In this document: positions 14,976 to 20,598 of the stretch, one piece after another
Layout of the letters: each line of letters starts with the position of its first letter
How positions within the stretch are numbered: the first letter of the stretch is position 1
Source of the DNA: Halobacteriales archaeon QH_7_69_31
GTDB lineage: Archaea; Halobacteriota; Halobacteria; Halobacteriales; Haloarculaceae
Assembly: GCA_003021745.1 (NCBI GenBank)
Contig: PXQY01000071.1
Coordinates: 1-34,148, forward strand
Length of the DNA stretch: 34,148 nt
Direction of reading: 5' to 3'
The notes under the pieces: model-generated
Seen by the model: only the letters and a program-made list of their open reading frames with translations
The model's database searches: none
What the model was told of the DNA's origin: nothing
Program-made: the position numbers and the translations under genes

Positions 14976-15482
14976 CTATCGTGTGTCCGGCGCCGGCTCC
15001 CCGAGCCACTCCTCGTAGAAGGTGTCGACGTCGGGCTCGAAGCTCTGCCAGACCGGGTAGCCGGCCGGGACGGCGTCGACGTCCAGCTGCGCGTAGCAGC
15101 CGGGGCAGAACCACTCCCGGAGCTGGAAGTCCCAGTCGGGGTGGGGCGTCTGGTACTCTGGGTAGATCTCCCGGTGCTCGCCCTCGTCCTCCCGGATGCG
15201 GACGCGGGCGTGGTGCTTCCAGTTCTCCCCGAGCGAGCAGAACTCGTGGCCGCAGTCGCACTTCACGATGCGGCCCCGGTCGGTCCCGACGGCGTAGAGG
15301 TGGTCGTTCAGTGGCAGCAGGATGGGGTTCTCGAAGTCGACGCGCTCTTCGAGAAGCCGCCGTGTCACCTCGAACCGCTCGCCGTCCTTCGGGTCCGGGA
15401 GGACGTCGTTCCGCAGCTCCGACCAGCCGATATCGCCGTCGATGAGCTGTGCCACCTGCCGTTCGTCGGTCTCGCTCGCCAT
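14976..15482 (-). CDS. acxC: Acetone carboxylase gamma subunit
   Basis: 168 aa; IVKCDCGHEFCSLGENWKHHARVRIREDEGEHREIYPEYQTPHPDWDFQLREWFCPGCYAQLDVDAVPAGYPVWQSFEPD; ATGA overlap with the alpha subunit. Confidence 0.88.
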   Translation of the reverse strand: MASETDERQVAQLIDGDIGWSELRNDVLPDPKDGERFEVTRRLLEERVDFENPILLPLNDHLYAVGTDRGRIVKCDCGHEFCSLGENWKHHARVRIREDEGEHREIYPEYQTPHPDWDFQLREWFCPGCYAQLDVDAVPAGYPVWQSFEPDVDTFYEEWLGEPAPDTR

Positions 15483-17755
15483 CAGAACCCACTCCTGTCG
15501 AGGTCCCAGAAGTCGTGGAACTCGGTCTCGAACGCTTCGGACATATCGAAGGCGTCGCGGTACATTTCGGCGACGACCTCGGCGACGTCGCCGTCCGCCA
15601 TCCGGTCGCGCTCGCGTTCGTAGAACGCCTCGAAGGTCTCGCTCTCCTCGCGGCGGCGCTCGCGGATCGCCTCGCGGGCCGTCTCGGTCGCGGCCTCGTC
15701 GAGGTCGAACGCGCGGTGCTTCTCGTCGAACGCGCCGACGACGCCGTAGACGGACTCGACGGTATCGGGCGAGTAGACCTCCGCTTCGACGTCCTTGACG
15801 ACCTTCGGTAAGGGGCGTTCCAGCGGGTCGCCCCAGCCGGGGCCGCCGCCCATCTGGAAGTGCATGACGTCGTGGTTGTCGTACTCCTTCGGGAAGTAGT
15901 TCCCACGGTGGGTGCGGGTGACGTCGCCGTCGATGTGCTCCTCGAAGGTTCCCGGCGGTGTGTCGCCGACCGGGTACGGGTCGCCCTCGCGGGCGCGCTC
16001 GGCGAGGTCGGTGTCGTGGGCGCGGACCGCGTACTTCGTCGAGCCGGGGTAGCCGCCGGACATCCCGGCCTTCGAGAACGTGACGTCCGGCTGGGCCGCC
16101 TTGTACAGCGTACACTCGTCGGTCCCCATGACGGTCATGACTCCCTCCCAGCCGGAGCCGCCGCGGTACTTCCCGTGGCCCGCGGAGTCGGTCTTGATCT
16201 GTCGGGAGAGGTACTGGGTGCCCCACTGGACGAGCTCCCACTCCTCGATGTCGCCCATGTCGGACTCGGGGTTCCACATCGCGTAGCCGTAATCGAGGCC
16301 GTCCCGAACCGCGGAGGCGCCGAGGCCCTGACAGGAGAGGTCGAACGGGCTGACGGGGAAGTAGTCGCCGACCTCGTCGGGGATCATCTGGGCCATCGAC
16401 TCCAAAAGCGTCCCGCCGCCCTGGACCGAGTCGCTGGTCTCGCTGTAACCGGTGACGACCTCCTCGCGGAAGCCGCGGGCGAAAAAGCCCTGCGAGACGT
16501 TCTCCCAGACCGCCTGGAACGCCGGCATGATGGTGCCCCACGGCGCGTGGAAGGACAGTTGAGGGTCGTCGGGGTTGGTGAGGCTGCCCTCCGGGAAGTG
16601 TGTATCGAGGGCGTAGTGGGAGCCGTCGTTTACCTTCCCGTCGTGGAGCAGACACTGGGTGAGCGACACCCACAGGCCGCCGGTCATCGAGCCCTCGGCG
16701 GCGTTAAAGGAGTGGTCCCCCTGCGAGGAGGTGCCCTCCATGTCGAGCGACATGGTGCCGTCCTCGCGGATCTCCATCTCCACCGGCAGGTGGTGCATCG
16801 TGTCCTGCTGCTGTTCCGGCTTCCAGCCCTCCTCTTCCAGCGGCAGCGCGGCGAATGACGTGCTCCGGTAGGTGCCGGGGAAGAGCCGCTCCTGGACGCG
16901 GGACTCCATCGTGCGGCGGCCCTCCTCGACCGCCTCGCGGGTGAACTGCTTGAACGTCTCGGCACCGACGTCCTCGATGATCTCGTGGACGGCCTCCCGG
17001 ATCATGTGACAGCCGGCGAGGCGGCACTTCTCGTCTAAGTCCCAGTACATCGGCGTCCGCGTCGCCCGCTCGCCGCGGACCTTCCAGTCCTGGTACAGCT
17101 CGTCGTCCTCGCCGATCTTCTCGCAGGTCGCGTAGATGCCGTCCTCGAACCGGGAGGTGTGGACAATGCTGGTGTGGCCCTGGCTGGCGCCGCCGATGTC
17201 GGCCTCGTGGGTGACGCCGTCGGCCCACGCCACCAGTTCGCCGTCGTGGAAGATGGGGACGATGGTGTGGACGTCCGTCGTGTGGACGTTCCCGAGGTCG
17301 TTGTCGTTGTTACAGAACACGTCGCCGGGCTCGATACCGCGGTCGTGCTCGTAGTCCTGGTCGATCATCCACTTGATGGCGAGGCTCCCGGTGTGGACGT
17401 GGACGATGATGCCGGTCGAGACCGCGATGGAGTCGCCCTCCGGCGTGTAGATCTGGAAGCACAGCTCCCCGATCTCCCGGACGATCGGCGACGCCGAGAC
17501 GTGGAGTGCGGTCTCGCGGGCCGACACCAAGGCCCCGCGAAGCCGCGAATAGAGCCGCTCGTACTCGAAGCGCTCGCCCTCCTTCAGCTCGAGGTCCTCC
17601 AGCCCGCGGTAGTAGCCGGTCTCCTCGGTCAGTCGTTCGGTCTCGGCGAGCATCCGCTGGAGCGTCTGACCCTCCCAGCCGATCTCGCCGCCGTTCGTCC
17701 GCTTCTCGGTGACGGCGCGTTTCTCCGCGCCGACCTTGGTGTTCTCGATACTCAT
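15482..17755 (-). CDS. acxB: Acetone carboxylase alpha subunit / HyuB-type hydantoinase B family
   Basis: MSIENTKVGAEKRAVTEKRTNGGEIGWEGQTLQRMLAETERLTEETGYYRGL...GDVFCNNDNDLGNVHTTDVHTIVPIFHDGELVAWADGVTHEADIGG; ATG at 17755. Confidence 0.88.
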   Translation of the reverse strand: MSIENTKVGAEKRAVTEKRTNGGEIGWEGQTLQRMLAETERLTEETGYYRGLEDLELKEGERFEYERLYSRLRGALVSARETALHVSASPIVREIGELCFQIYTPEGDSIAVSTGIIVHVHTGSLAIKWMIDQDYEHDRGIEPGDVFCNNDNDLGNVHTTDVHTIVPIFHDGELVAWADGVTHEADIGGASQGHTSIVHTSRFEDGIYATCEKIGEDDELYQDWKVRGERATRTPMYWDLDEKCRLAGCHMIREAVHEIIEDVGAETFKQFTREAVEEGRRTMESRVQERLFPGTYRSTSFAALPLEEEGWKPEQQQDTMHHLPVEMEIREDGTMSLDMEGTSSQGDHSFNAAEGSMTGGLWVSLTQCLLHDGKVNDGSHYALDTHFPEGSLTNPDDPQLSFHAPWGTIMPAFQAVWENVSQGFFARGFREEVVTGYSETSDSVQGGGTLLESMAQMIPDEVGDYFPVSPFDLSCQGLGASAVRDGLDYGYAMWNPESDMGDIEEWELVQWGTQYLSRQIKTDSAGHGKYRGGSGWEGVMTVMGTDECTLYKAAQPDVTFSKAGMSGGYPGSTKYAVRAHDTDLAERAREGDPYPVGDTPPGTFEEHIDGDVTRTHRGNYFPKEYDNHDVMHFQMGGGPGWGDPLERPLPKVVKDVEAEVYSPDTVESVYGVVGAFDEKHRAFDLDEAATETAREAIRERRREESETFEAFYERERDRMADGDVAEVVAEMYRDAFDMSEAFETEFHDFWDLDRSGF

Positions 17756-17796
17756 TGGGTGTCGCCTCCGTGGCCGCCGTGTCGGTCGATGTTCAT
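17752..17796 (-). CDS. Putative 14-aa His/Gly-rich coupling micro-ORF (MNIDRHGGHGGDTQ)
   Basis: ATG overlaps the beta-subunit stop (ATGA) and its TGA overlaps the alpha-subunit ATG (ATGA); GGAGG upstream. Confidence 0.4.
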   Translation of the reverse strand: MNIDRHGGHGGDTQ

Positions 17797-19997
17797 AGCA
17801 CGTCGCCTCCCGTACCCTGCTCGCGCAGGTGGTAGATCCGGTTCTCGTCGAGCGGCGCCTCGTAGCCGGGCGGGACCAGGATGGTCGTCGCCGGCGCCTC
17901 GACCACGGCCGGCCCCTCGATGCGGTTGCCCGGCTCGAGGCTCCGCATCCGCCAGAGGTCCGCCGCGTGCCAGTCGTCGTCCCAGTAGATGTCACGGGTG
18001 CCCTTGTGGGCCGCCTCCGGCGGCGTCTCGCCCTGCAGTTCCTCGTCGGGGATCGTCGGTTTCGGCGAGGGCGCGACGCCGACGCCGATGGCCATCGTCA
18101 GCTGGTAGCCGTTCTCCGGGGACTTGGCGGCGCGCTTGAACACCCGGTCGAACTTCGCCTCGTAGCGGTCGATGACCGTCTCGACGTCCGCGGCGTCCAG
18201 GCCCTCCTCGTCGTCGTACACCGCGCCGATCTCGACCTCGAGGTCGTCGAGCATCCCGAGGTACTGGATGCGGAGCGACGGCCGGAACTCCACGGTCTCG
18301 GGATCGACGCCGTCCCGGTCGAAGGCCGCCTCCGCCCGCTCGCGGAGGGCCTCGAGAGTGTCGTTCAGCGAGTACGCGACCGACGAGGCGTTCGAGTAGT
18401 CCGGCTGCAGGATCTCGTCGACCGACCGGTCGTACCGGTAGGCGGCATCCGCACACGCACAGCCGAACGCCGAGAAGGCCGCCGCCCACTGCGGGATGAG
18501 GACGTCCTGGAATGCCAGCCCGCGGCTGTAGCCCGCCGCGTGCAGCGGCCCGCCACCGCCGTAGCTCAAAAGCGTGTAGTTCTCCGGCGAGTAGCCGAGC
18601 CCGAGGATGAGCCCGCGGAGCTCGTTGGCCATGTTCCGTTCGACGATGTCCAGCACGCCGCGGGCGGTCTCATGGATGTCCTCGCCGAGCGGCTCGGCGA
18701 CCTGCTCGCGGATGCCCTCGAGGGCGACGTCGCGGTCGACGGGGATGTCGCCGCCGAGGAACGAGTCGGGGTTGAGATAGCCCAGCGCGAGCGTGCAGTC
18801 GGTGACGGTGACGACGTCGACGTCGGCGTCGCGGTTCGAGTAGCCGACCTCGTAGCCCGCCGAGTCCGGCCCGACCTCGATGCGCTCGGATGCGCGGTCG
18901 ACGCGGACGTAGGAGCCGGTGCCGGAGCCGATGGTGTCCATCGCGGTCATCGGGATCGAGACCATGAACTGCGCGAGGCTCTGGTCCCACCGCGTCGGGT
19001 AGTGACCCTCCGTAATGAGGCCGACGTCGAAGGAGGTACCGCCGACGTCCGAGCAGACGAGGTTGTCGATGCCGAGTTCGTCGGCGACGAACTCGCCGCC
19101 GAAGATGCCGCCGATGGGGCCCGACAGCATCGTGTCCGCCAGCCAGTCGTGCTCCGGCGCGACCGTGCCGCCCGAGGAGGTGAGCACCCGGACGGGCGCC
19201 GCCGAGCCGAGCTCGGCGAAGCCGTCGTCGACGCGGTAGAGCTGGTCGCGGGACGGCTCGGCGGCGTAGGCCTCGATGACGAGCGTGTTCATCCGCGGGA
19301 CCTCACCGCGGATCGGCTTCTGCTCGGAGGAGAGCCACACCGGCACCGCCTCGCCGCGCTCGGCCATGACCTCCTCGGCGATCTCCCTGACTTTCTGCTC
19401 GTGGCTGTCGTTGAGATACGAGTACACGAGACAGACACAGATGACGCGGACGCCGCGGTCGAGCAGGTCCTCGACCGCCTCGTAGGCCTCCGCCTCGTAC
19501 AGCGGCAGCGTCGGCAGGCCGGCCATGTTCATCCGGCCCCGCACGCCGCGGACGTTCTCCCGCGGCACGAGCGGCTCGGGGTGCTCGTGCTCGCGGGCGT
19601 GCAGGCGGCCGGCGTACGAACGGTCGGCCCACGACTGGATGCCGCGGCCGAACCGGTGCTGGTCCTCCATGCCGCCGTTGGTGATGAGCCCGATGTCGCC
19701 GGAGCCCTCCCGCTCGAGCAGCCGGTTGAGCATCGCCGTCCCGGAGTAGACGATGCCCTCCAGGTCGCCAGCGCCGGCCTCCGGCGGGACGCCCCAGTTG
19801 TCGAGGGCGTCGCCGAACGAGTTCCGGGTACAGACCGACTCGTCGGCCGGCGTGGTCTGGGCTTTGCCCACCGTGTAGTTCGCCTCGTCGTCCACGACGA
19901 AGGTGTCGGTCATCGTGCCGCCGGTGTCCAGCGCGAGTAGGCGCGGGCGGTGTCGCGCCTCGCTGCTCGCGGGTCGCTCCGCTCCCCGCTCGCTCAT
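17793..19997 (-). CDS. acxA: Acetone carboxylase beta subunit / HyuA-type hydantoinase A family
   Basis: RLLALDTGGTMTDTFVVDDEANYTVGKAQTTP, VCSDVGGTSFDVGLITEGHYP, LLSYGGGGPLHAAGYSRGL, MAIGVGVAPSPKPTIPDEELQG; start codon uncertain because the first codons are repeat DNA. Confidence 0.87.
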   Translation of the reverse strand: MSERGAERPASSEARHRPRLLALDTGGTMTDTFVVDDEANYTVGKAQTTPADESVCTRNSFGDALDNWGVPPEAGAGDLEGIVYSGTAMLNRLLEREGSGDIGLITNGGMEDQHRFGRGIQSWADRSYAGRLHAREHEHPEPLVPRENVRGVRGRMNMAGLPTLPLYEAEAYEAVEDLLDRGVRVICVCLVYSYLNDSHEQKVREIAEEVMAERGEAVPVWLSSEQKPIRGEVPRMNTLVIEAYAAEPSRDQLYRVDDGFAELGSAAPVRVLTSSGGTVAPEHDWLADTMLSGPIGGIFGGEFVADELGIDNLVCSDVGGTSFDVGLITEGHYPTRWDQSLAQFMVSIPMTAMDTIGSGTGSYVRVDRASERIEVGPDSAGYEVGYSNRDADVDVVTVTDCTLALGYLNPDSFLGGDIPVDRDVALEGIREQVAEPLGEDIHETARGVLDIVERNMANELRGLILGLGYSPENYTLLSYGGGGPLHAAGYSRGLAFQDVLIPQWAAAFSAFGCACADAAYRYDRSVDEILQPDYSNASSVAYSLNDTLEALRERAEAAFDRDGVDPETVEFRPSLRIQYLGMLDDLEVEIGAVYDDEEGLDAADVETVIDRYEAKFDRVFKRAAKSPENGYQLTMAIGVGVAPSPKPTIPDEELQGETPPEAAHKGTRDIYWDDDWHAADLWRMRSLEPGNRIEGPAVVEAPATTILVPPGYEAPLDENRIYHLREQGTGGDVL

Positions 19998-20598
19998 TCC
20001 GAGGCCTCCCTCCGGTCGGCCTCGCGGCTCACGGCTCCCTCCGATGAATCATGCTATTGGATCGCACGGTACCCGGTGAGAACGGCCGCACCCACAAAGT
20101 ACCTCACCCTCGCACCGAAGGCGGTTTCAACCCGCTGGGGCGCCCGGCGGCCTGTCGTCACCGTGCGAACGGGTTCCGACCCGGCAGGAGGATCAATCCG
20201 GGCAGCCACCGCATCGTCCGGTGTTCGGCGACGTGCTGGTTACCGGCGACAGCGGTCGGGGCGGCGCCGAGGCTACCGACGAGCAACGGGGAGACGCTGT
20301 GAGTGAACGGACGGTGGACGGTGCCTACCGCGGGATGTCTGTCCAGGCGATGCCGGCCCATGCCGCCGATAAGAACCCGTTCTACATCGCAACGATCGCC
20401 GATCATATCAAAAGGCGCAGTTAGGAAACTCCGCTCGATTCGTACGTGAACACAGGCGTTACGATTTCCTGATCAGTATTATGGCACTGATAGTTTGGAT
20501 TACCAACGATCCTATCGCGGAGAAGCGCTTGATCACATCGTTCAAAGAGGTATTTGAATGTACGGAATCTACTTAATCCCCACCCGTGTGTTTCACTC

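Follow-up and report, generated by a model that had tools for sequence, protein, structure and literature searches.

In the acetone carboxylase-like operon of Halobacteriales archaeon QH_7_69_31, the genes of the beta and alpha subunits are joined by a micro-ORF of 14 codons which overlaps both of them. We think it reasonably probable that this micro-ORF serves as a stepping stone for serial termination-reinitiation, keeping translation of beta and alpha coupled, with the spacer that contains it probably derived from start-site duplication. The analyzed window comprised 34,148 nucleotides of this genome (G000). On its minus strand the order of the operon is beta, micro-ORF, alpha and gamma, with the following features (G011 being the nearest relative and G068 a member of another genus):

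17793..19997, minus strand: acetone carboxylase beta-like subunit, hydantoinase A family, 734 aa (PDB 5svb_B, E=2.6e-201)
17802..17810, minus strand: Shine-Dalgarno-like GGAGGCGAC before the micro-ORF start, within the 3' end of beta; identical in G011
17752..17796, minus strand: 14-codon micro-ORF MNIDRHGGHGGDTQ, with a 4-nt overlap with beta at its start and a 4-nt overlap with alpha at its end
17761..17769, minus strand: Shine-Dalgarno-like GGAGGCGAC before the alpha start, within the micro-ORF; G011 and G068 have it too
15482..17755, minus strand: acetone carboxylase alpha-like subunit, hydantoinase B family, 757 aa (PDB 5m45_A, E=1.2e-172)
14976..15482, minus strand: acetone carboxylase gamma-like subunit, PF08882; start overlaps the alpha stop as TGATG
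19994..20032, minus strand: a second, upstream micro-ORF VSREADRREASE of 12 codons, which has a GGAGGGA of its own and a stop overlapping the beta ATG

The gene names given by an earlier, sequence-only reading of the window were borne out, since the locus carries the Pfam families hydantoinase A, hydantoinase B and PF08882 and the best relatives of solved structure are the acetone carboxylase beta and alpha subunits. A HyuA-like beta, a HyuB-like alpha and a PF08882 gamma gene were thus found side by side, as expected of an acetone carboxylase operon, and all three belong to families that form subunits of one complex, as expected of translationally coupled genes. The acetone carboxylase complex is alpha2-beta2-gamma2 (PMC12250083).

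The beta gene ends with a last codon and stop of CTA TGA, giving the ATGA that opens the micro-ORF (beta stop TGA at 17795-17793, micro-ORF ATG at 17796-17794); a second ATGA ends the micro-ORF and opens alpha (micro-ORF TGA at 17754-17752, alpha ATG at 17755-17753). The codons in between read ATG AAC ATC GAC CGA CAC GGC GGC CAC GGA GGC GAC ACC CAA TGA. Both the sequence and position of the micro-ORF and the repeated Shine-Dalgarno motif, as first read, were confirmed: GGAGGCGAC occurs at 17810-17802 and 17769-17761, each time 5 nt from the ATG, and the two starts are 41 nt apart, with a beta-alpha gap of 37 nt. Termination-reinitiation calls for stop and start codons that overlap or are separated by no more than about 10 nt; ATGA was found at both ends of the micro-ORF and TGATG at the alpha-gamma junction. 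The spacer had also been described as a 41-bp tandem repeat, and this held for the first 25 nt (19/25 alike) but not for the whole units, which are alike at 23/41 positions only. An identity of 19/25 was reached by 4 of the 1378 pairs of Shine-Dalgarno-bearing starts of the same genome. The motif GGAGGCGAC is rare (60 copies in 2.1 million nt, both strands counted), and in the surveyed half of the genome it was located at most 22 nt from just one of 1040 called starts, namely that of alpha. From the likeness of both starts and the rarity of the motif near other starts, it appears that the spacer was probably born by duplication of the Shine-Dalgarno/start region.

According to the proposed mechanism, a ribosome finishing beta at ATGA would restart on the overlapping ATG, read 14 codons and terminate at the second ATGA, within reach of the second Shine-Dalgarno motif, where it would restart on alpha. 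Beta and alpha would thereby stay coupled over a 37-nt gap otherwise expected to uncouple them, and after the duplication selection would have kept both stop-start contacts rather than the peptide. In Haloferax volcanii reporters, roughly half of the coupling remained with gaps of 13-14 nt and hardly any with 22-23 nt, and the loss was seen even when the constructs contained a Shine-Dalgarno motif (PMC10666635). Given this loss, the gap of 37 nt (58 nt in G068) should uncouple alpha from beta. As the enzyme is alpha2-beta2-gamma2 and the frame bridges the gap and makes contact with both genes, we infer that the micro-ORF is translated, that it couples the two genes and that the enzyme benefits from this.

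The geometry was retained in G011 (alpha 96% identical; sequence matching MAG QS_1_69_70, loci L002 and L044), where the micro-ORF has 14 codons in the same frame, overlaps its two neighbours (as GTGA) and comes with both Shine-Dalgarno motifs. It recurred in G068 (82%), where a different frame of 21 codons, MTTSDHHVPTRTRGIPPRRRR, likewise extends from ATGA to ATGA across the gap of 58 nt. Three other genomes (G005, G016 and G002; 88-92%) contained no spacer or micro-ORF, and beta and alpha overlap directly as ATGA; the same direct overlap was present in most loci read from a more distant clade (about 65%). The micro-ORF was thus in the same frame in one close relative but absent from three of the five nearest. 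The stop-start contact, by comparison, was kept in every near relative, while the peptide was not. The beta stops of G000 and G068 are located at different positions, both after A, a base that makes up 4.9% of third codon bases, and A-ending last codons are rare outside overlaps. In protein trees, G068 was placed outside the relatives lacking the relay, i.e. outside the other five, and the history of the relay might have involved either one origin and two losses or two gains. Similarity between the spacers of G000 and G068 was matched by 7/2000 shuffles with the Shine-Dalgarno region and by 98/2000 without it, which is no more than suggestive of a common origin. A plasmid search gave only relatives below 60% identity.

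Between G000 and G011, the micro-ORF differs at 13/42 nt and alpha at 119/2271. By codon position, these changes are distributed 6/5/2 in the micro-ORF and 20/15/84 in alpha, so that the signature of purifying selection expected for a functional small protein was not seen in the peptide. The suggestion of the sequence-only reading that a His-rich peptide could bind metal found no support and was rejected. Two histidines do occur in every version, but MNIDRHGGHGGDTQ, the G011 peptide VSVARTSGHGGDHS and MTTSDHHVPTRTRGIPPRRRR are not conserved among one another, eight of the nine codons changed in G011 are non-synonymous, and three near relatives lack the peptide altogether. Only GGD, encoded by the Shine-Dalgarno motif, and the adjoining GH persist, the remainder drifting almost without constraint; we give a functional peptide next to no chance. 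It is very improbable, too, that the micro-ORF is an effect of annotation, with alpha beginning upstream or beta reading through. Although 80 codons upstream of alpha are open in its frame, this frame has no start codon from the end of beta to MSIEN, the upstream extension is Arg-rich and not coding-like, and MSIEN is the start of alpha in all six close relatives; an upstream alpha start was rejected on this ground.

As for the effect of the micro-ORF on alpha, the double stop-start relay proposed by the earlier reading proved to be the best-supported part (by G011, the G068 version and an unrelated nuo operon, see below), but a special stoichiometry appears less likely. Coupling is the likelier role because relatives without the micro-ORF show the direct ATGA overlap typical of this operon. 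A regulatory leader, in which the micro-ORF would lower alpha or sense some condition by stalling or attenuation and so shift the alpha:beta ratio, has precedents among short ORFs; a two-codon minigene, for example, modulates txe translation (PMC8708949). We nevertheless regard it as improbable here, given that the subunits are required 1:1:1 and that no peptide or codon signature is conserved. An RNA element was rejected as well: the junction had no Rfam match and folded no better than its shuffles (z=0.63).

The nuo operon concerned belongs to another haloarchaeal genus (g3, L208-L217). At its nuoH-nuoI junction, reached via a pattern scan, a frame of 16 codons (e.g. MTATRTDPRATGGDLS) was present in 10/10 loci, which had been picked by the Shine-Dalgarno region and nuoI start only and come from closely related genomes, thus not representing ten independent events. 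The identity of NuoI was computed, while the upstream gene is presumably nuoH, judged by its C-terminal sequence. The first contact, with the nuoH stop, is TGATG in eight loci, TAATG in one and ATGA in one, and the micro-ORF stop overlaps the nuoI ATG in all ten. By codon position, variable columns number 4/5/5 for the micro-ORF, compared with 0/0/17 for codons 1-50 of nuoI. As in acx, conservation extends to the contacts but not to the peptide, which is free to drift.

The birth of such a relay is illustrated by the start of beta itself. G011 lacks a 62-nt insertion that in G000 contains the VSREADRREASE micro-ORF; the former GTG start of beta and its Shine-Dalgarno motif now open the VSREADRREASE frame, which ends on a new beta ATG, and the N-terminus of beta is about 11 residues longer in G000 than in G011. 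Judged from this comparison, a relay can be born when an insertion breaks the frame: the insertion is tolerated because the stop of the original frame falls within the new RTGA start.

On its own, such geometry is no rarity in this GC-rich genome, and chance gives it a fair rate: about 10 spaced pairs with in-phase RTGA..NTGA were found in 1.05 Mb of G000, several of which probably reflect chance, their spacers having an AT-rich, promoter-like look. The acx case rests on the comparison with relatives. Our survey covered 1.85 Mb (1.05 Mb of G000, with a crude gene call, plus 0.4 Mb from each of G068 and G005). In spacers of 8-60 nt between an RTGA stop and an NTGA start, open frames were distributed 1/2/9 by phase (in-phase last), and this excess in phase (9/12, p=0.004) rests on small numbers; the YTGA-stop control, in which most stops are unable to start, gave 8/4/3. 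For spacers of 61-120 nt the control was also skewed (4/1/10), and no claim is made for them on that account. When GGAGG was additionally required before the downstream start, six of eight spaced junctions in the 1.85 Mb were open in-phase relays (the window included) and two were closed, with none in the other phases. A pattern search for ATGA..GGAGGT..ATGA in 59 genomes was noisy: 0/30 loci passed the coding filter, and some conserved matches were rejected as C-termini of real genes (L204; L219/L225/L229), although another match gave access to the genuine relay at nuoH-nuoI.

The main competing explanation is a neutral by-product. In this view, duplication of the start region would have left the old start with a frame that ends on the new start by chance, alpha would initiate de novo from its own GGAGGCGAC, and the micro-ORF would have no role. 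The 19/25 duplication signature and the occurrence of chance relays agree with this, as does the fresh insertion at the beta start, which made a similar micro-ORF without any G011 counterpart; moreover, alpha has a good Shine-Dalgarno motif of its own and might start independently. Against it, G000 and G011 share both contacts despite 13 substitutions in 42 nt, the contacts occur again in G068 and in 10/10 nuo loci, and A-ending last codons, as noted, are rare outside overlaps. We therefore find the by-product doubtful, though worth serious attention, and favour the stepping stone. As a generalization, we tentatively suggest that haloarchaeal operons might recurrently use micro-ORFs bounded by stop-start contacts as stepping stones, a class of translated elements born by duplication of Shine-Dalgarno/RTGA starts, selected for the two contacts alone and without a functional product; we hold this possibility with less than even confidence.

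Termination-reinitiation itself is well known. The acx junction resembles the haloarchaeal pairs described by Huber et al. (2019, PMC6728339; 2023, PMC10666635) in organism group, in its ATGA/TGATG overlaps, in having the Shine-Dalgarno motif inside the upstream frame and in joining subunits of one heteromeric complex. However, in those pairs two full genes meet in a single overlap, whereas acx has two serial overlaps around a 14-codon frame, which bridges a gap where direct coupling is lost. Nearest to the acx frame are ribosome-delivering short frames and mycobacterial interspersed repetitive units, MIRUs (PMC12548453). MIRUs likewise contain a short inserted frame with a -4 overlap with the downstream gene, and cause little damage when inserted at a start site; they are dispersed mobile repeats, while the acx spacer resembles a local start-region duplication. 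The presence of GGAGGCGAC near just 1/1040 called starts in half the genome argues against a dispersed copy at other starts. Ribosome-delivering short upstream ORFs and bicistronic designs (PMC12548453) share a frame that feeds the next start independently of its peptide, but they are located at the 5' end of the message, whereas the acx micro-ORF would receive its ribosome from a preceding full gene. The axe-txe minigene (PMC8708949) is also a mini-ORF within an operon, and the gene after it responds to its frame and distance; it differs in having two codons and no double overlap, and perhaps acts via mRNA stability. In the open-access papers searched, nothing was found that describes a frame bridging two genes by a double overlap within an archaeal operon. 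As haloarchaeal termination-reinitiation was reported to fail beyond about 20 nt (PMC10666635), coupling is assumed to be absent from operons whose spacers are longer. If the stepping stone is real, a bridging micro-ORF would keep these operons coupled and explain how they tolerate start-site insertions, and part of the unannotated tiny ORFs in ribosome profiling would be elements whose peptide is irrelevant.

Several further frames were recorded in passing. In-phase relay frames in spaced pairs with GGAGG before the downstream start were MTAVERAAEPALPGGDRR and VIMREPTTDETAGANLGGGEP in G005 (L155), MTADRRPNR in G000 (L080) and VIYPTVPRVDGGSVA in G068 (L060). A dispersed MSERSE start repeat was considered and rejected, its 21-mer occurring in only two of 146 genomes (G005 and G113), with unlike surroundings. 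Finally, around position 212390 of contig C1 of G005 (L163, L174), a start region GGAGGTGGTTGCATGAGCGAGCGAAGCGAGCGAGTGCAACGACG stands in tandem before a gene of 128 codons, with two full copies and a third Shine-Dalgarno/ATGA, a clear tandem start-site duplication.
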